From contig CAJATL010000285.1 of the NCBI GenBank assembly GCA_903944895.1, positions 1 through 51,223 of the forward strand: DNA of 51,223 nt, given 5' to 3'. This DNA comes from an uncultured Bacteroidota bacterium (GTDB taxonomy: Bacteria; Bacteroidota; Bacteroidia; Bacteroidales; 4484-276). Below are positions 24,427 to 32,844 of this stretch, piece by piece (position 1 is the stretch's first letter; the number at the start of each line of letters is the position of its first letter). The notes below the pieces were generated by a model that did not search any database, had not been told where the DNA came from, and saw only the letters and a list, made by a program, of their open reading frames with translations. The position numbers were made by a program, and so were the translations under genes.

Positions 24427-24500
24427 GGTCCAGTAGCTCAGTTGGATAGAGCAGCAGCCTTCTAAGCTGCGGGTCATGGGTTCGAGCCCCGTCTGGATCA
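24427..24500 (+). tRNA. tRNA-Arg (anticodon TCT)
   Basis: A 74-nt cloverleaf: acceptor stem GGTCCAG/CTGGATC with one G-U pair, D-arm AGCTCAGTTGGATAGAGC, anticodon arm GCAGC-CTTCTAA-GCTGC with anticodon TCT (reads AGA/AGG), T-arm TTCGAGCC, discriminator A. CCA is not encoded. The 3' part from the anticodon stem onward (24457-24501) is repeated at 32614-32658: this is the attachment site of the island that follows. The gene stays intact because the island brings an identical 3' end. Confidence 0.97.
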
Positions 24501-24501
24501 C
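24457..24501 (+). repeat. attL core: 45-bp direct repeat overlapping tRNA-Arg 3' half
   Basis: Starts with GCCTTCTAAGCTGCGGG in the anticodon stem and ends one base after the tRNA (GGATCAC). It is identical to 32614-32658; the flanking bases differ on both sides (A/G before, G/A after). Confidence 0.95.
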
Positions 24502-24808: not shown

Positions 24809-25420
24809 CTACTTTGCAAAAATTTTGTAACTGTGAATGTTTAATTTGAAGGTATCGCGATTGTCAGGTTTTTCTAAAAAGGCATTTAAATTCATCGCCC
24901 AATTATTATAGGGGATCACCTGAACATCAAACAACATTTGCAACCCTTCCTTAACGCGGTTCATCGCTGCGAACACTGTCTTCTCTTTGTCAGTGATGGC
25001 AAGGATAGTATTTTTCTTTATGAAGGCCTCCATTAACTTAGGATCGGACACAACGCGCCCTTTTTTTACTTCGCCAATGTTAACCAGGTACCCAACATAA
25101 TACTTCGCATCTTTGCAGGCTGCGATAAATTCGCCGCGTTCCTTTAAATTAAGCATCTCGAGTAATTTCTCAGGTTGGATTTTAAAGCCTCCAAATGTAG
25201 GTTGTTCACTGTTGGCAATGTACTCAGTCACTTTTGTAAGTAGGAAGGCTTCCGGCTGTGAAATTGCGCTTAATAGGTCTTCTTTGTTGGTGATTTCGCC
25301 AATACCCAAATCAGCGAATTGTTTGAGCACATCCTCGTACAAAGGAATACTTTGTAAAAATGTTTTGTTGGTTTCTGCGATTAAATCGTCATTTCTGAAA
25401 ACTAAATTCTGTTCGTTCAT
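24809..25420 (-). CDS. Island protein of unknown function (203 aa)
   Basis: A soluble, mixed helical protein of 203 residues that I do not recognise. There are no cysteine clusters, membrane segments or nucleotide-binding motifs. A weakly regular N-terminal part (residues 1-60) is followed by repeated Lys/Glu-rich helices. It is the last gene of the minus-strand cargo, 35 bp after its upstream neighbour and just before the strong terminator at 24747. By position it would be expressed with the DUF5681-like and proline-rich proteins; a packaging or interference role is possible but nothing in the sequence demonstrates it. Confidence 0.7.
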   Translation of the reverse strand: MNEQNLVFRNDDLIAETNKTFLQSIPLYEDVLKQFADLGIGEITNKEDLLSAISQPEAFLLTKVTEYIANSEQPTFGGFKIQPEKLLEMLNLKERGEFIAACKDAKYYVGYLVNIGEVKKGRVVSDPKLMEAFIKKNTILAITDKEKTVFAAMNRVKEGLQMLFDVQVIPYNNWAMNLNAFLEKPDNRDTFKLNIHSYKIFAK

Positions 25421-25455: not shown

Positions 25456-25908
25456 TTAAATGTGAGTGCGACGGTATCCCGCGCGGGGGTTTGGTATCGT
25501 TCGGGGCTGTATTGGTATTGCTGCCGGTTCCATCGGTGCAGGTGCTCCCATCGGTTGCGCTGAATTCTGCTGAATCGGTGCAGGCAACCAGCTTTTAATC
25601 TTTTCGGCTGTTTGTTGGCTTGTTGGCTGTGGTTCCTGTTTCTTTTCGCTTTGTTTGTCCAGATAGTCACCGAGCTTTTTAACCTGTTTTACAGTTTCTT
25701 TTGATGTTACCTGAATAAGAATATCATTTTTGCCTGTGGGCTTTTTTACTTCCCCCCTGTCATCAGTAACCCAAATGACGGTGTCAACGCTTCGCCTGTA
25801 ATCCGTCGGGGGTTGCTCGCCAACTTCTAAGATATAACACCGACTTTCGGACAAATCAGCTCCGGATAAATATTGCCTAATTAAGGCTATTTTAGCTTGT
25901 TTATTCAT
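25456..25908 (-). CDS. Island protein of unknown function with Pro/Gln-rich tail (150 aa)
   Basis: 150 residues. The N-terminal half (about 1-75) has alternating strands and helices (CYILEVGEQPPTDYRR, DTVIWVTDDRGEVKK). The C-terminal half is low-complexity, rich in Pro, Gln and Ala (PAPIQQNSAQPMGAPAPMEP) and ends in a basic RAGYRRTHI. I do not recognise the family. It starts 4 bp after the stop of the DUF5681-like gene, so the two are translationally linked. The disordered tail suggests a scaffold or partner-binding role (inference). Confidence 0.7.
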   Translation of the reverse strand: MNKQAKIALIRQYLSGADLSESRCYILEVGEQPPTDYRRSVDTVIWVTDDRGEVKKPTGKNDILIQVTSKETVKQVKKLGDYLDKQSEKKQEPQPTSQQTAEKIKSWLPAPIQQNSAQPMGAPAPMEPAAIPIQPRTIPNPRAGYRRTHI

Positions 25909-25912
25909 TGCT

Positions 25913-26230
25913 TTAAAGGTTTACGTCATCAGGATAAATTGTTATTCCAACGGGTTGCCCGGGGTCGTTTTTCAACCTTTCGAGCAAAGCATCCAACGCG
26001 GCATCATTCAAACTTTCGAGCGTAATCGGGGCCGGGATTATCATTTTTGCAACCCTTTCGATAAATTGTAAACGGTCTTTTGGTTCAAGCTTATCAAAAT
26101 CGGCCTGCATTGTTTCTAAGTTGGTTTCTAAGAATTGTTGAAACACGTTTCTAAGTTGTTCGGTTGAGCGGTTAATTTTTCCCGGTTTACGCCCTGCCGG
26201 GTTTCCTGATTGTCCTTTTTGATATTTCAT
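25913..26230 (-). CDS. DUF5681-like small island protein
   Basis: 105 residues. The N-terminal YQKGQSGNPAGRKPGKIN is the signature of the DUF5681 family, short proteins that often lie beside phage terminase genes. The remainder is helical (EQLRNVFQQFLETNLETMQADFD, then LLERLKNDPG). In this island no large terminase follows. If the family link to terminase small subunits holds, the protein could direct packaging of island DNA into helper-phage particles, as small terminases do in phage-inducible islands; this is an inference from the family's usual context. Confidence 0.72.
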   Translation of the reverse strand: MKYQKGQSGNPAGRKPGKINRSTEQLRNVFQQFLETNLETMQADFDKLEPKDRLQFIERVAKMIIPAPITLESLNDAALDALLERLKNDPGQPVGITIYPDDVNL

Positions 26231-26303: not shown

Positions 26304-27218
26304 TTACAAATACTGTTTTAATGATTTTAGTTTGTCGCGGTCGGATCCTTCCCTATCAACTATATTTTGGTAAGCATCAAAATCAATGCTTTTAAGTATT
26401 GCATTTTCGAGTAATGAATTTAAAATTTCAGGTTTGAGCGCGTCAACTTCCCAACTTTGAGCGCCGTTTTTATCAATAAAATCCTTTGACCTGGTATCTG
26501 TTATTTTGGCCATATTTGGCGGTGGGTTGTATTGTCTAATTTGATCCATCGTTAACGCAATTGCCTCAACTGAAAAATTAAAATCAGTAAATTCAATACC
26601 AGGGCAATTATAGGTAACATCACCAAAAATAAAATCGTTCGTTCTATCGGTAATATCCCGGATCATGTCCAACCCGCTGGGATCGTAATCACCCAGGTAA
26701 ATTATTTTTATAGATTGCCCGTTTTCCTGGGCGCTTTTAAATCTTTGAAAACTGTCATACATTGCCGAAACACTGGAATAACCCCTGTTAACCATGATAG
26801 GTATGTGATATTTTCGGGTGATCCTACCCAATACCCCGCTCAAAGCATCCTTTTCTACCCAAACTTCAATGTACATTTTTTGCCCTGCCTGCCGTGGTAA
26901 TTGATATTGATTAATTGCGGCGCTTAATATTTCGCCTGGGCTGCTAAATGAAGCGGGTTGCGACGGTTTTCGAAGTCTGTCTTCTATTGCATCCCAATCA
27001 ACAAAGCCTGCCATCCGGCCTTCAGTTAATAAATGGCTGATTTTTTTATATTCTTTTTGGTGGTTTGGGATCACATCCCGGCTTACCAACTGATAATAAA
27101 GTTGGCGAAGCGTTAACACGTAACCTTCTTTTTGATACTCTTCAATGATCGTATTTATAATTTCAAGCCTTTTTTTGTTCGTTTTGCTTAAGCTGATTTC
27201 TCTAAATTTGATTTTCAT
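26304..27218 (-). CDS. Spo11/topoisomerase VI A-like protein (winged helix with YY motif plus TOPRIM domain)
   Basis: 304 residues. Residues about 10-75 form a helical region with LTLRQLYYQLVSRD, which matches the catalytic-tyrosine region (kReiyY) of Spo11/Topo VI A. A TOPRIM-like core follows: IEVWVEKDALSGVL (conserved Glu), a middle strand MVNRGYSSVSAMYDSF, and YLGDYDPSGLDM, the DxD motif in the form typical of Topo VI A. The protein lacks the longer N-terminal parts of Topo VI A and there is no Topo VI B-like GHKL ATPase in the window. Single A-like proteins of this sort have been noted in mobile elements. A DNA-cleaving or nicking role in replication or integration is likely but unproven. 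Confidence 0.8.
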   Translation of the reverse strand: MKIKFREISLSKTNKKRLEIINTIIEEYQKEGYVLTLRQLYYQLVSRDVIPNHQKEYKKISHLLTEGRMAGFVDWDAIEDRLRKPSQPASFSSPGEILSAAINQYQLPRQAGQKMYIEVWVEKDALSGVLGRITRKYHIPIMVNRGYSSVSAMYDSFQRFKSAQENGQSIKIIYLGDYDPSGLDMIRDITDRTNDFIFGDVTYNCPGIEFTDFNFSVEAIALTMDQIRQYNPPPNMAKITDTRSKDFIDKNGAQSWEVDALKPEILNSLLENAILKSIDFDAYQNIVDREGSDRDKLKSLKQYL

Positions 27219-27549
27219 TTCGCTTTTGTTTGAACGTTGTTTTATTACTTTCTAAAAATACCGTTTAATAAATTGATATTCAATGTTTTATAGCTGTATT
27301 GGCTTACGCTTTACAAGCTGCGGGTCGTTAATTTTGGCCTTTTTACTTGTTACAAATGTTACACGGTGTGACACGCAAAGCAATTGATATTCAGCTTTGT
27401 AACAAATGTTACACAAAAAAGCCAAAAAACTTATTAAGCCGTCAGTCACATTTTTTACCCTTGCATTTATCATGATTTCTATTTACTTTTTTTTAAAAAA
27501 ACATTGTAACATTGTAACATTCGTTATTTGGTGCGGGTTGTAGCTGTTT
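27219..27549. repeat. Island spacer with clustered GTAAC/GTTAC repeats (candidate replication origin)
   Basis: 331 bp with no credible gene between the TOPRIM gene and the helicase gene. It holds a GTTAC-AAAT-GTTAC direct repeat (about 27349-27362), a near-palindrome GTTACACGGTGTGAC (27358-27372), the inverted repeat GTAAC-AAAT-GTTAC (27399-27412) and a tandem ATTGTAAC pair (27503-27518). A perfect palindrome GTTACACGGTGTAAC follows at 27556-27570, inside the 3' end of the helicase gene. A 61-codon frame at 27288-27473 runs through the repeats and is probably chance. Confidence 0.5.
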
Positions 27550-29145
27550 TCAAAAGTTACACGGTGTAACATTTTCATTTTGTTTCGTTTCTGTGAATAA
27601 TTCGCGGGTGAATTGAAACGGGCGCCCGGTCTTTGCCAATTCATCAGCAAAAGGTTTGTATCTGATTACTTTTTCCGCGGGCATCAGCTTAAATTCATTT
27701 TTTAACACCGTGCCAATGTAGGCGGCTCCAATGTTGTGTTCAAACTGAAAATATTTATCTTTCAAATCCTTTGCGGTGCAAAAACAACTTTCTAAACTGG
27801 TACCGTCATTTTCAAAAAAGTAAGTCAAACGGATCATGATTTCTTTTGCTAAGGTGCTAAGGCTGTCAGATTTTACCGCTAAAAGTTGATCGGTTTGGAT
27901 TTCATCAGGTAAAAACATCATTCTACTTTTTATCTGAAGCGGTTCCTGGTCATTAAGAAACTTCAAAAAAGCCGGTATTTCATTTATCAGCAATTTTTCA
28001 AAGTCTGGTATATCCTGGGCGGGTTTGTTAACTTTCCGGATCCAGTACCTTACCTCCTCTTCATCAATCCGGATCAAAGCATTTTCTTTATTGCTGCAAA
28101 GGATAATTTTGCCGTAAAAGTCAACTGAATAGGGCGCAACATACTTGTTATTGACTGTCAATCTTTTTGCCGTTGAAATGTTTTTCAATCTTTCGGCGGC
28201 GGCGCTTCGTTCTATCAGTGTTTCATCAATGGCAATTATGTTTTTATTGGCATAAATCCCGTTGAAACTACTTTCTAAATCACTGCTTTGGATTACCGTC
28301 ATATTATCGCTAAAAATAGCCTGCAACCAATTTAAGTATGTAGTCTTACCAGTTTCGCGGGTTGCGCTTACCAGGGCTAAAATTGGTAGGCTTTGCGTTG
28401 GCTTTTGATACAAGCATTGCATGTATTTCACACCCTGGTCAAATTGTTCGCCAAAAATGTGTTTTATCATTTGCTTTGAATATTCACAATTGCCGGCGGC
28501 GGGTTCGTGGGGAAATTTAGAATAAAGGTTGAAGCAATTTTTTACAATTGGATCATAGTTTTTATTATCAGGTACCATTGCAAAGCTGTCATATTTTGGG
28601 ATTGTCTGCAAAAAACTTGTACCATAATCCAGGGTAATTTCCGCGCGCTTCCAGGGCATTAAAACACGTTTCTTTTTGATAAATCTATCAGAAACATATC
28701 CTACTTTGAAGTAATCACACCCGCAACGGATATAAGAAAATTCGCTTGTTTTGGGATCCGTCGAAGTTGGCACCTGGGTAATGTTCGAAGTATAATTTGG
28801 TCGCGAAACGTGCGCTTTAAATTCCTTTGTCCCGTGTTCGCCGATGCGCTGATAAGCTGATCGAACGGCCTTCTTTATTTCCGTTGCTGTGAAGTCACGT
28901 TCCTGGTATTGCATCAGAAAATTTAAAGCATCATTTTCGTTAACTGCGAAACGATTACAATCACTTGCAACGGTGTGAACAAAGTTGTTTCGGTTGCCGT
29001 TGGTCGGGGTTTCCTTAATCCCTTTCATGATGTAAGAAAACACATCGTTACCGTTGGTATAATTTAGCGGCAGCGCTTCCATTGTTTGTACTTCCATCAT
29101 TTGCGCCTGCTGGGTTGCTGTTGTTAATTCTGCGATACTTGCCAT
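27550..29145 (-). CDS. Primase-helicase: SF3/P4-type helicase of the island
   Basis: 531 residues from the ATG at 29145; the frame is open to 29175, but the shorter form reduces the overlap with the primase gene to 22 bp. The N-terminal 130 residues resemble a primase C-terminal domain (NNFVHTVASDCNRF). An ATPase domain follows at about residues 250-380: Walker A ATRETGKTT, Walker B NIIAIDE, then KIILCSNKENALI with a conserved Asn (sensor/motif C) and a basic REVRYW-like element. This is the arrangement of D5/P4-like replicative helicases in plasmids and phages. It probably unwinds the island origin together with the adjacent primase. Confidence 0.85.
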   Translation of the reverse strand: MASIAELTTATQQAQMMEVQTMEALPLNYTNGNDVFSYIMKGIKETPTNGNRNNFVHTVASDCNRFAVNENDALNFLMQYQERDFTATEIKKAVRSAYQRIGEHGTKEFKAHVSRPNYTSNITQVPTSTDPKTSEFSYIRCGCDYFKVGYVSDRFIKKKRVLMPWKRAEITLDYGTSFLQTIPKYDSFAMVPDNKNYDPIVKNCFNLYSKFPHEPAAGNCEYSKQMIKHIFGEQFDQGVKYMQCLYQKPTQSLPILALVSATRETGKTTYLNWLQAIFSDNMTVIQSSDLESSFNGIYANKNIIAIDETLIERSAAAERLKNISTAKRLTVNNKYVAPYSVDFYGKIILCSNKENALIRIDEEEVRYWIRKVNKPAQDIPDFEKLLINEIPAFLKFLNDQEPLQIKSRMMFLPDEIQTDQLLAVKSDSLSTLAKEIMIRLTYFFENDGTSLESCFCTAKDLKDKYFQFEHNIGAAYIGTVLKNEFKLMPAEKVIRYKPFADELAKTGRPFQFTRELFTETKQNENVTPCNF

Positions 29146-29897
29146 AATTCTAAATACTGAGGTTTGATATAACAATTGGGATCATGACAGATAAAACAGG
29201 TACGGGCAACGTCCTTAGTTTTCTCATCAATATTTTTCACAAAATCATGATAGTTACTTTTCAGATAACCGAGTACAGCCATATAAAAGCGGTCGTATGG
29301 TGCATGATCGTCGTTATGAAGTATCATTTTCAATCCATCGCCTGAAGGTGAAACAAACATCATTTGGACATCAAGTTTCATATCAGCTATCAATAAATTT
29401 CTGAATATTTCAACCTGTGGCACATGATCGAAGTCAAAAACGGCGTAACCAGATAAGTTTTTAAGGCTGTCAGATTTCCGAGCGGCGAAAGTCCCGGCAA
29501 AGGTCACATGATCGAAGCGGGTTTTCTTAAATTCTGCCTTTTGTGCGCCCGCTTCCATTGCCCTGAACTGTTCAGTAACTTTTAAATAATAAGTTCCTGT
29601 AATCGCTGTAAATAGCTGTACAAGCGTTATTTCATTTCGTGGTCTTGTATTGGTTACCGGTGCTTTAAAGTAGCTGAATTTTGGATAATTTACGGTAAAA
29701 TTTCCTTTATAGATATTCCACAATTCCGGGATAGTTTTATTAAACTTCCTGCAAATTTCCGCATCTGTGAAGTTGCAAAAATTATCATTTATCCATTTTT
29801 GAATAGATAAGCCGGTTTCAAAAGAAAGTATCGTATCTTTGCATTGTGCGCCGTCAAACGCTGCCTGGGTTCCCTCCTGGGCTTTTTTTATGTCCAT
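29124..29897 (-). CDS. VirE N-terminal/BT4734-family primase domain protein
   Basis: 257 residues. The central part reads FDHVTFAGTFAARKSD, then YAVFDFDHVP (acidic pair expected for archaeo-eukaryotic primase catalysis), MFVSPSGDGLKMIL and later ARTCFICHDPNCYIKP, the signature of the BT4734/VirE-N family, known from Bacteroidetes mobile elements. The N-terminal 90 residues include an HTH-like DAEICRKFNKTIPELW. It overlaps the helicase gene by 22 bp, and the pair is probably a split primase-helicase. It would synthesise primers for island replication. Confidence 0.85.
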   Translation of the reverse strand: MDIKKAQEGTQAAFDGAQCKDTILSFETGLSIQKWINDNFCNFTDAEICRKFNKTIPELWNIYKGNFTVNYPKFSYFKAPVTNTRPRNEITLVQLFTAITGTYYLKVTEQFRAMEAGAQKAEFKKTRFDHVTFAGTFAARKSDSLKNLSGYAVFDFDHVPQVEIFRNLLIADMKLDVQMMFVSPSGDGLKMILHNDDHAPYDRFYMAVLGYLKSNYHDFVKNIDEKTKDVARTCFICHDPNCYIKPQYLELWQVSQN

Positions 29898-30079
29898 ATA
29901 GTTACCAGGTTTTTGTTTTTGGGCTGAAATATTGCTTTTAAGTGCTGCCTATGGATAACAGTCACATTATTAATTTTTGTACTGGCTATTTTTTTAGCTT
30001 TTACCAGGCGGTAAATTGTGCCGTAATCAGTACCAAATTCAATTGCACCTTGTCCAATAGAAACGAAACTGTTATCCAT
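29888..30079 (-). CDS. Small helix-turn-helix DNA-binding protein (excisionase-like)
   Basis: 63 residues. The sequence GAIEFGTDYGTIYRLVKAKKIASTKI followed by VTVIHRQHLKAIF has the spacing of a MerR/excisionase-type winged HTH (recognition helix around Tyr and Arg, then a short wing). Its stop region overlaps the primase start by 10 bp and its own start abuts the next small HTH gene, so the two HTH proteins and primase form one transcript. Likely roles are excision directionality or control of replication genes. Confidence 0.65.
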   Translation of the reverse strand: MDNSFVSIGQGAIEFGTDYGTIYRLVKAKKIASTKINNVTVIHRQHLKAIFQPKNKNLVTIWT

Positions 30080-30408
30080 TACGCTACCTTTACCCTTTCT
30101 TTCAGTGCTTCCATTGCCTGAATTTTTCGGTCTGATAGGCTTTTATGTTCGTACTTTTGAAGGTAGGCCATAACATCACTTCTTTTAAAAAGTAATCGTT
30201 TGCCGTGCTTTATGTAGCCAATTTTGGGCGCTTTTCTGTAAACGGTCGTTACAGGTGATTTGATAATTTCAGCAACTTCCAGGGCTTCCAGTAATGATTC
30301 ATCTGGTTTTTTGGGCGGTGCGCTCTGGGTGCTTTGCATCAGCGATAATATTCGCTCAATGTTGATAAGTCTTTGGTCTAAGACTTCAAAAGGATTCATA
30401 TTCATCAT
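30079..30408 (-). CDS. Helix-turn-helix domain protein (HTH_17/excisionase family)
   Basis: 109 residues. The N-terminal 30 residues are a helical segment (EVLDQRLINIERILSLM); the core LLEALEVAEIIKSPVTTVYRK, then IGYIKHGKRLLFKRSDVMAYLQKY is a standard HTH_17 domain (helix-turn-helix followed by the beta wing and a DVxxYL helix). These domains serve as excisionases or regulators in Bacteroidetes integrative elements. Its stop overlaps the start of the 63-residue HTH gene by one base (ATGA-like coupling). Confidence 0.8.
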   Translation of the reverse strand: MMNMNPFEVLDQRLINIERILSLMQSTQSAPPKKPDESLLEALEVAEIIKSPVTTVYRKAPKIGYIKHGKRLLFKRSDVMAYLQKYEHKSLSDRKIQAMEALKERVKVA

Positions 30409-30507: not shown

Positions 30508-31167
30508 TTAATGAAATAGGGCGTTTTTAATGAATGAAGTTAAATATTCATTATAGTTTGCAAACCCGCCCGGATCATTGTCCCAGGCTTCATAATTCTT
30601 AACATATCCCATATCAGCAAAAATATTGCCTACAAAAAGATACTTACTATTATCGGATCCATCAGGCGCAAATGATAGCGTTAACTCAATTGCTTTTTTT
30701 ACCCTGGCTTTCTTTTCGGATTTCGGGCGGTGCGCTTCCCTGGCATCAGATTTTAAAATGTGTTTTTGATTTTTTTCTAATCCCTGCCGGATCCCTTCTA
30801 TTGTTGCGGGGTCTGTTATGCTAAGAATTTCACCTGAAGCAAGTTTGAATGATATTCTTTTTATCGGGTGCCGTTCATCAATACCATAAACTTGTCTAAA
30901 ATTCTGATAGGCATGATCATAATCCCTTTGATACTTTGGATTTTCCTCGATTTGATAAATTGGGTTTGTATCAAATTCATGTGTTATTCTGCTTAATCGG
31001 GGTCTTTCAGAAATGATTTTGTTAATTGTTTCGCTGTCATCAATTGGCCTGTATTGTCCCTTAATTCTTATCATAAATGCTTCCCATAAAATATTACTAA
31101 TTTTTGTTAGCTGATCCCGTTCGATTGCATACTTTTCTGAAATTTCTTTAAAACTTAATTTTTTCAT
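30508..31167 (-). CDS. Island protein of unknown function (219 aa)
   Basis: 219 residues, charged and soluble. There is a helical N-terminal part (LSFKEISEKYAIERDQL resembling an HTH), a middle stretch HAYQNFRQVYGIDERHPIKRISFKLASG, and a basic segment REAHRPKSEKKARVKK near residue 150, followed by a C-terminal YNEYLTSFIKNALF. I do not recognise the family. It overlaps the integrase gene start-to-stop by 4 bp (its ATG lies at the integrase stop), so it is co-translated with the integrase; accessory or regulatory roles in recombination are conceivable. Confidence 0.7.
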   Translation of the reverse strand: MKKLSFKEISEKYAIERDQLTKISNILWEAFMIRIKGQYRPIDDSETINKIISERPRLSRITHEFDTNPIYQIEENPKYQRDYDHAYQNFRQVYGIDERHPIKRISFKLASGEILSITDPATIEGIRQGLEKNQKHILKSDAREAHRPKSEKKARVKKAIELTLSFAPDGSDNSKYLFVGNIFADMGYVKNYEAWDNDPGGFANYNEYLTSFIKNALFH

Positions 31168-32435
31168 TGTATCGGGGTATTTATTAGGGTTTCCAAATTT
31201 TCGAAGGTGTCCCGGCGCTGTTTTTGCTCAAAGCCTTTTAAATAGTTCATTGTTGTCTGAAGGCTGCTATGTCCTAAAGTTTCCTGCAAAAAACTAACTG
31301 AAATACCGGCGTTTTTTAATATGGTGGCGTAACTGTGGCGGCTTACATAAGTTGATACCCTGGGCAATTTTAAAGCATCTGAAATAGCTTTTAAATGCTT
31401 GTTCATTATCCTGGTATGATTGGCCGCAACCTGTTTAATTTGCAAAGGTGTTTCGGCTCCAACCATGAAAGGCAAAATATAATTATCGCCGCTTTTATCC
31501 TGGGTGCCGTAATTGTCCAAAATTGCCTGTACTGTGTTTGTGATCGGGATTTTAATGATAGTTTGCTTTTTTACCGTTCGTGCCGTTTTCTTTCTTTCGA
31601 AATGGATTTCATTGCCGTTTATATTTTTCCACTTCAATAACATCAGGTCTATTGCTGATATTCCGGCTAAATTAAACATCAAAAGAAACAAGTCCCGACT
31701 TCGTTTCATTGCCGGATAAGTGTTTGGTATTTCGTAATTTCTGATTAAAGAAACTTGCTCGGCTGTTAACGCTGTTTTGGTGCCGGATCCATCAATAATA
31801 CGAAACTTACCATCTATTGCACCATCAGTATTTTTTTTGAAAGGGTAAATTTTGGGATCTATTATCTTTTCACGAATTGCCCAATTAAAAACGCTGCGAA
31901 TTGTCCTTAAATAAATACTTGCGGTGCTTTGGGTAATGTTTTGTTTCATATTAGCTTGTAAGCCTTCCAAATACTTTGGTGTAATGGCTTTGAAGGTGAT
32001 TTTATTGCTATCATATTTAATCAAAAAATTCATAGTATTTCGATAAATTGAAGCGTTACCAATTCGCCCGGCCTTGTTCATTTCTTTTATGATCGTTTCA
32101 AAGCATGTGATAATATTATCAGTATCGCCACGGCCTAAAATTGATTTCAGTTTGTTGTGTGAATAATCGCCGTTTTCAATAATATCCCTGATAGTGTTTT
32201 TAATGGCTGTAAACTGATCGCCTATTGCTGTGCGCTGTTTAGTTAGTTCAGTTTCGCGGGTTGTTGGTAAGCGTTTAAATTCATCAGGTGTAAAATAATA
32301 GCCTGGTGAAATGTAGGTAGCTTCCCTTTTATGGGTGATCCTAAATCTTACCGGGTGTTTCGTTTCGTCCTTTGTTCGCCTGGTATCATAAATGATCATT
32401 CCAGTTACCCCACCTTCAATAAAACTTTTTTCCAT
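31164..32435 (-). CDS. int: Tyrosine recombinase (integrase) of the island
   Basis: 423 residues. Arm-binding and core-binding (SAM-like, about 95-200) domains precede the catalytic domain (about 220-415). The C-terminal motif SRHSYATILKNAG carries the second conserved Arg and His, LGHSSLQTTMNYL carries the last His and the nucleophile Tyr. The first Arg box reads AGISAIDLMLLKW, where the usual Arg is absent, as is known for the IntDOT-type integrases of Bacteroidetes. The gene lies 178 bp from the right core repeat; with the attachment repeats it accounts for insertion into tRNA-Arg. It starts behind a good promoter at 32487-32516. Confidence 0.93.
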   Translation of the reverse strand: MEKSFIEGGVTGMIIYDTRRTKDETKHPVRFRITHKREATYISPGYYFTPDEFKRLPTTRETELTKQRTAIGDQFTAIKNTIRDIIENGDYSHNKLKSILGRGDTDNIITCFETIIKEMNKAGRIGNASIYRNTMNFLIKYDSNKITFKAITPKYLEGLQANMKQNITQSTASIYLRTIRSVFNWAIREKIIDPKIYPFKKNTDGAIDGKFRIIDGSGTKTALTAEQVSLIRNYEIPNTYPAMKRSRDLFLLMFNLAGISAIDLMLLKWKNINGNEIHFERKKTARTVKKQTIIKIPITNTVQAILDNYGTQDKSGDNYILPFMVGAETPLQIKQVAANHTRIMNKHLKAISDALKLPRVSTYVSRHSYATILKNAGISVSFLQETLGHSSLQTTMNYLKGFEQKQRRDTFENLETLINTPIQ

Positions 32436-32468: not shown

Positions 32469-32490
32469 GTTCAAACATTGTTCAAACAAA
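32469..32490 (+). repeat. Right arm-type repeat pair GTTCAAAC-n3-GTTCAAAC-AAA
   Basis: Same octamers, spacing and downstream AAA as the pair at 24527-24548, in the same orientation, 123 bp inside the right core. It overlaps the -7 element of the integrase promoter, which would let the integrase regulate its own gene. Confidence 0.6.
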
Positions 32491-32516
32491 AGTAATAAAT
32501 AATAGCATATAACAAA
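32487..32516 (-). promoter_or_regulatory. Promoter of the integrase gene (TTTG-n18-TACTTTTG)
   Basis: On the minus strand TTTG (32513-32516), 18 bp, then TACTTTTG (32487-32494): a near-consensus Bacteroidetes promoter (TTTG-n19-TAnnTTTG). Transcription would start about 45 bp before the integrase ATG. Confidence 0.65.
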
Positions 32517-32613
32517 CAATAACGGTAAATATTATTTTTATTAATTGTACTGATAATTAATATTTTATGTAATTTTGCTAAATAACGAAAGGTAATAAAT
32601 AGTAAAAGTTTAG

Positions 32614-32658
32614 GCCTTCTAAGCTGCGGGTCATGGGTTCGAGCCCCGTCTGGATCAC
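32614..32658 (+). repeat. attR core: displaced 3' fragment of tRNA-Arg
   Basis: 45 bp identical to 24457-24501, without the 5' half of a tRNA in front of it, so this is not a second tRNA gene. It marks the right boundary of the island. Confidence 0.95.
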
Positions 32659-32670
32659 AAACAAAATCAA

Positions 32671-32699
32671 AGGGTTACAAAACATTGTAACCCTTTTTT
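32671..32699 (+). terminator. Original terminator of tRNA-Arg, now separated from its gene
   Basis: Perfect 10-bp stem AGGGTTACAA/TTGTAACCCT with loop AACA and a T run, 12 bp after the attR core. Before insertion it would have followed the tRNA directly. The rest of the 32659-32844 stretch is AT-rich without a recognisable feature. Confidence 0.75.
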
Positions 32700-32844
32700 A
32701 TTCCGTTGTAACCACTTTTGTTAACACTTTTCTGACTTTAAATTTTAAGTTTAGCAATTTCTTATTGTTTCTATTTTTTAATAGAGCATTTGAACCTTTT
32801 AAAGCGTTCTGCGTTTAAAAGCAATAAATTTAAAAATTTGCAAA

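Follow-up and report, generated by a model that had tools for sequence, protein, structure and literature searches.

A B-less Topo VI A/Spo11-like Mini-A protein in a tRNA-Arg-integrated element of an uncultured Bacteroidota bacterium

Background

What can a chain resembling the A subunit of DNA topoisomerase VI (Topo VI), or Spo11, do in a mobile element that encodes no B subunit? We addressed this question for a 304-aa protein encoded in a 51,223-nt stretch of DNA from an uncultured Bacteroidota bacterium (the window). The original prediction, made from the sequence alone, had described it as a stand-alone Spo11/Topo VI A-like protein lying in a mobile island beside a primase-helicase and a repeat cluster, and had suggested for it an origin-nicking or resolving role.

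Such proteins are related to the enzyme from which Spo11 arose. The class named Mini-A comes from Takahashi et al. 2020 (NAR Genom Bioinform lqz021), as cited in three reviews (PMC8185306, PMC7614492, PMC11302465). According to the reviews its members are truncated homologues of Topo VI A that viruses and mobile elements carry; one review states that the archaeal members are uncharacterised. In the literature that we surveyed, we found no enzymatic activity reported for any Mini-A.

Results

The gene and its family

The open reading frame fills the entire region given below, the plus-strand reading of which contains 16 stops.

26304-27218, minus strand: Mini-A protein (B-less, Topo VI A/Spo11-like), 304 aa

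The motifs LTLRQLYYQL (residues 35-44), VEKDAL (121-126) and GDYDPSG (176-182), on which the original prediction relied, were all present in the translated protein. It matched PHROG 6247 (phrog_6247, "DNA topoisomerase") over its full length with E 8e-93. No match was obtained with it in the Pfam and NCBIfam profile searches, while individual Mini-A homologues do match Pfam TP6A_N and TOP6A-Spo11_Toprim. The Mini-A of Pseudomonas phage NP1 was 36.6% identical to it over 95% (E 3e-52), and the archaeal plasmid gene LC711082, annotated "Topo Mini-A", matched with E 2e-28; both agree with the suggestion that this is the single-subunit kind found in mobile elements. Phage NP1 provides the Mini-A example drawn in PMC7614492.

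We based the assignment on homology to these named Mini-As and on the descriptions of the class in the reviews. The window protein is a Mini-A, a member of an already described class: it is homologous to named Mini-As, combines a winged-helix Tyr with a TOPRIM Glu/DxD, has no B subunit and is carried by a mobile element. As to the B subunit, the prediction held: PF09239 was not detected in the genome (96% complete) in a profile search in which the archaeal controls were positive, and Pfam models recognised neither a gene of the Topo VI A and B families in the whole genome, again with archaeal controls detected, nor a B subunit or GHKL ATPase among the genes of the element. Topoisomerase VI is an ATP-dependent A2B2 enzyme of A and B subunits, and the window Mini-A is not one.

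Fold and active site

From 116 aligned homologues we obtained a confident AlphaFold (AF2) model, which had a mean pLDDT of 93.6 and was made up of a winged-helix and a TOPRIM domain. For the TOPRIM (C-terminal) half, VIA-align gave Topo VI A as the best match (1d3y, Z 11.5; 9o0g, Z 11.3), followed by MksG (Z 10.7), JetD (10.3) and Spo11 (9.1); Z values differing by less than 1 were considered a tie, hence Topo VI A and MksG are not told apart by rank alone. A separate model of the N-terminal domain was best matched by 1d3y_A (Topo VI A) with a Z of 7.6 and 2.4 A over 69 residues, a value that is modest alone. Precisely, its residues 11-82 lay on residues 72-143 of 1d3y_A, with an offset of 61 at both ends, so Y42 falls on residue 103, which we take to be the catalytic Tyr of that Topo VI A. 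With Foldseek, the only match of the whole model under E 0.001 was MksG, with a low TM, and the N-terminal domain had no significant match. PDB sequence searches with the Mini-A protein or profiles returned nothing relevant, and the link came from fold comparison only. The proposed Spo11/Topo VI A-like fold was borne out, both domains being best matched by Topo VI A with all catalytic motifs in place. A closer resemblance to a non-topoisomerase TOPRIM family did not appear in VIA-align, where MksG and JetD were in or near a tie with Topo VI A, but MksG was the lone significant match of Foldseek.

When profiles of Mini-A and archaeal Topo VI A were aligned, with weak statistics (E 0.006-0.06), Y42, E122, D177 and D179 paired with Y106, E202, D254 and D256 of M. 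mazei; the global mode of hhalign gave no useful alignment. These M. mazei residues are the catalytic Tyr and the TOPRIM acids of Topo VI in a 2026 cryo-EM study, in which the catalytic tyrosine is restrained by the salt bridge R102-E342 (PMC13040014). R38, Y42, E122, D177, D179 and E257 were invariant in all 116 homologues and likewise in 9 further relatives, divergent ones included; the invariance of the first five in the alignment argues that the motifs are not due to chance. The adjacent Y41 position was Y in 110 homologues and F in 6.

R38 sits four residues ahead of Y42, as R102 does ahead of the M. mazei tyrosine, and R38-E257 is probably the counterpart of the cleavage-restraining salt bridge of Topo VI A. 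The structural end points, the invariance of E257 and the local pattern AEQQAF / WEVDAL favour E257 as the counterpart of E342; hhalign instead aligned E342 with E290, which is not invariant.

The host element

The mobile island was confirmed, since its ends are defined by an exact 45-bp direct repeat and it carries an integrase. The whole tRNA-Arg(TCT) gene (24427-24501; ARAGORN, Rfam) contributes its 3' part to the repeat, attL and attR are spaced by 8,157 bp, and the tyrosine integrase lies at the end far from the tRNA. The features are the following:

24457-24501, plus strand: attL, 3' 45 bp of tRNA-Arg(TCT) (ARAGORN and Rfam tRNA), exact 45-bp direct repeat with attR
24809-25420, minus strand: p203, 203 aa, third cassette gene; 40% identical to L014:15496-16104; no family match
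25456-25908, minus strand: p150, 150 aa, second cassette gene; 81% identical to L014:15011-15457
25913-26230, minus strand: DUF5681 protein, 105 aa, first cassette gene; PF18932 E 8.8e-7, over cut-off; 73% identical to the sister copy
27347-27413, no strand: two TTGTWACAAATGTTACA repeats upstream of Mini-A, two 17-mers 50 bp apart
27550-29175, minus strand: helicase, 541 aa (PriCT_1-like and DUF5906); PF19263 E 1.5e-17; phage primase families
29124-29897, minus strand: PrimPol-type primase, 257 aa (BT4734-like N-terminal); PF08800 E 3.9e-19; PrimPol_Db E 5.9e-20, below its cut-off
29888-30079, minus strand: small HTH protein, 63 aa, excisionase-like by profile matches; 43% identical to L014:11898-12095 in the sister element
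30079-30408, minus strand: HTH_17/excisionase-like protein, 109 aa; PF12728 E 1.5e-6; TIGR01764
30508-31167, minus strand: p219, 219 aa; no significant family
31164-32435, minus strand: tyrosine integrase, 423 aa; PF13102 E 8e-18; PF00589 E 4.8e-13; phrog_1 E 1.1e-35
32614-32658, plus strand: attR, 45-bp copy of the tRNA-Arg 3' end, exact direct repeat with attL

All genes are on the minus strand, in the order integrase, p219, the two HTH proteins, primase, helicase, Mini-A, DUF5681, p150 and p203; the primase-helicase is thus next to Mini-A as predicted, the DUF5906 helicase being the nearer of the two to Mini-A. No capsid, terminase, relaxase or conjugation protein was significantly matched in the element with Pfam, NCBIfam or PHROG, and no RecET- or RecA-like gene was recognised in its 8.2 kb. 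Like phage satellites, the element is integrated and has replication genes and no recognisable virion genes of its own; no TerS, redirecting or capsid-size gene was recognised in it, and DUF5681, p150, p203 and p219 have no functional assignment. When the joined flanks were used to search relatives, intact tRNA-Arg genes came up, but the flanking DNA there had diverged too far for an empty site to be recognised. What is new here is the setting, that is a Mini-A in a complete, well-delimited element integrated at tRNA-Arg, while the named Mini-As are carried by phages or plasmids; that of phage NP1 is likewise a single-chain truncated Topo VI A homologue of about 300 aa with Tyr and TOPRIM motifs.

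The predicted repeat cluster exists and is small, consisting of the two TTGTWACAAATGTTACA copies and a degenerate third one within the 331-bp gap from helicase to Mini-A. These repeats could be an operator or iterons. Just outside attR, at 32669-32696, we also observed a terminator-like hairpin with a 12-bp stem (GGGTTACAAAACATTGTAACCC), and the sister element has a similar hairpin next to its repeat on the tRNA side.

A second element in the same genome

The only other Mini-A of the genome (34% identical) is on contig 175, in a second element (L014:9855-16341). Its boundaries are two copies of a 114-bp repeat, 88% identical and 6,373 bp apart, within which lies the 3' part of tRNA-Gly(CCC). 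This sister element encodes its own integrase (28% identical to that of the window), a VRR-NUC protein two genes upstream of Mini-A, a DUF6965 protein, Mini-A and then the same cassette of DUF5681, p150 and p203 (73%, 81% and 40% identical to the window proteins). The two elements have 74% nucleotide similarity from the last Mini-A codons (window 26326) through p150. In contrast, the two Mini-As share only 31-34% identity and are placed apart in the tree, in which the position of the sister protein is unsure (long branch). The simplest reading of these comparisons would be that modules were exchanged upstream of the cassette, which was conserved, while its neighbouring slot kept a Mini-A. The TTGTWACAAATGTTACA repeats are absent from the sister element and hence are not a general Mini-A target.

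The sister Mini-A (L014:13579-14646) is extended at its N terminus by a Cys-rich stretch that contains two CxxC pairs (CNNC, CKNC) and may be a zinc ribbon. The att-flanking DNA of the two elements (window 32481-32700 and L014:9879-10096) is 67% identical, and GTTCAAAC-type motifs, probably integrase arm sites, are repeated in that of the window.

Distribution and neighbourhoods

Relatives of Mini-A were found by tblastn in 76 phage and 55 plasmid records, in at least 591 viral contigs and at 261 loci of a species-level genome collection, and they include prophage loci. Close to the host they are rare: 394 further Bacteroidia genomes contained none, nor did 11 further members of its taxonomic family. 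The window protein groups in the tree with viral-contig proteins that are up to 68% identical, which suggests that it probably came from phages; its helicase neighbour had no relatives in viral contigs. One of the plasmids, of 15 kb, from Paenibacillus durus (NZ_CP009289), carries a Mini-A and a Zot-domain gene as in filamentous phages, and is perhaps an inovirus-like replicon.

Among 161 Mini-A neighbourhoods, considered without a background control, we counted an SNF2-type helicase in 18, VRR-NUC in 15, PolA in 12, a DUF2800 nuclease in 7 and SSB in 6. Neighbours were identified by profile scan where scanned and otherwise by eye, and each replication-type family occurred in only 5-19 of the 161 loci. 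These neighbourhoods fit early replication or recombination modules.

Discussion

In Topo VI, the catalytic tyrosine acts on the partner subunit. We propose, with a probability of about 0.5, that the window Mini-A is a B-less type IIB topoisomerase-like enzyme that performs double-strand cleavage and resealing in the replication or recombination of its element, restrained by the presumed clasp. Two copies would pair, and Tyr42 on the winged helix of one together with the TOPRIM metal site of the other (E122, D177, D179) would attack both strands of a bent duplex. The two attacks would fall about 2 bp apart and leave each 5' end on a tyrosine, and the broken ends would then be resealed; the invariant active site makes the cleavage chemistry likely. 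Until DNA or the partner frees it, the tyrosine would be held back by R38 and E257, a clasp that would replace some of the control exerted in Topo VI by the B subunit. The element may use such cleavage and resealing with its own primase-helicase, the DNA being relieved or separated in replication or recombination. The helicase and primase that flank the window Mini-A support this role, as do the SNF2 helicase, VRR-NUC, PolA and SSB-type genes near other Mini-As. With Topo VI the protein shares the Tyr winged helix, the TOPRIM domain and aligned active-site residues, but it has about 60 residues fewer, only weak profile similarity and no B subunit. In fact, since it lacks a GHKL ATPase, it would not be expected to pass strands in a directed way, and "topoisomerase" may therefore be a misnomer for it.

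Breaks of the same kind could also be processed instead of resealed, as with Spo11, and would then start recombination-dependent replication or aid recombination of the element. Spo11 too is a stand-alone A-type chain and shares these motifs and this fold, the lack of a B subunit and of a strand-passage ATPase suits such a role, VRR-NUC and helicase genes occur near other Mini-As, and a VRR-NUC gene lies near the sister Mini-A. However, Spo11 is eukaryotic, distant in sequence and works with B-like partners, which its cleavage in vivo needs, and the element has no recognised recombinase of the RecET or RecA type; we regard this role as possible and rather doubtful. We consider it improbable that Mini-A is a weapon, namely a nuclease against competing phages or plasmids comparable to Gabija and to the TOPRIM nucleases MksG and JetD (Wadjet). 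These two are close structural matches, weak JetD/DUF2399 profile matches were obtained and a three-gene uncharacterised cassette lies alongside, but MksG and JetD act with an SMC complex, and Pfam and PADLOC recognised no SMC-type JetA/B/C (MksF/E/B) gene in the element. To our knowledge, they are moreover hydrolytic nucleases without the Tyr motif, which is invariant here. PADLOC detected no defence system; its JetD model reached E 0.04 over 25 residues only, which does not place the window protein in the JetD family, and a JetD family search gave no match anywhere, controls included, and is therefore uninformative. Finally, the relatives are mostly phage genes, many of them by replication genes.

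The suggestion of origin nicking was not supported, and an origin protein that nicks or cuts the repeats by its own gene to start replication seems very improbable to us. In its favour, repeats lie in the helicase/Mini-A gap, but these could equally be an operator and are missing from the sister element, in which another gene precedes Mini-A. Both strands are cleaved by type IIB enzymes such as Topo VI, Mini-As adjoin many unrelated replication systems, and the element carries its own primase-helicase. A resolving role is possible.

For the proposed B-less cleaving and resealing enzyme, the invariant residues of the presumed clasp suggest, in a form open to testing, how such a chain would avoid random DNA breakage. 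The element is also compact and has defined ends, and its genome provides a comparison of its own, since two very different Mini-As there precede one shared cassette of three genes. A wider reading, which we think unlikely as a whole, is that tRNA-integrated elements of 6-8 kb would form a family with Mini-A as a core part that can be exchanged. This self-restrained, B-less enzyme would break both DNA strands as Spo11 does and cooperate with the conserved cassette of DUF5681, p150 and p203 in a dedicated step of replication, resolution or transfer. No other copy of p150 was found in the 395 Bacteroidia genomes sampled, phage records and viral contigs. DUF5681, when sought in phages, gave only a weak match in one Bacteroides phage, with no terminase beside it that would recall a small-terminase function; a DUF5681 protein has been detected with two peptides by virion mass spectrometry (PMC8954984).
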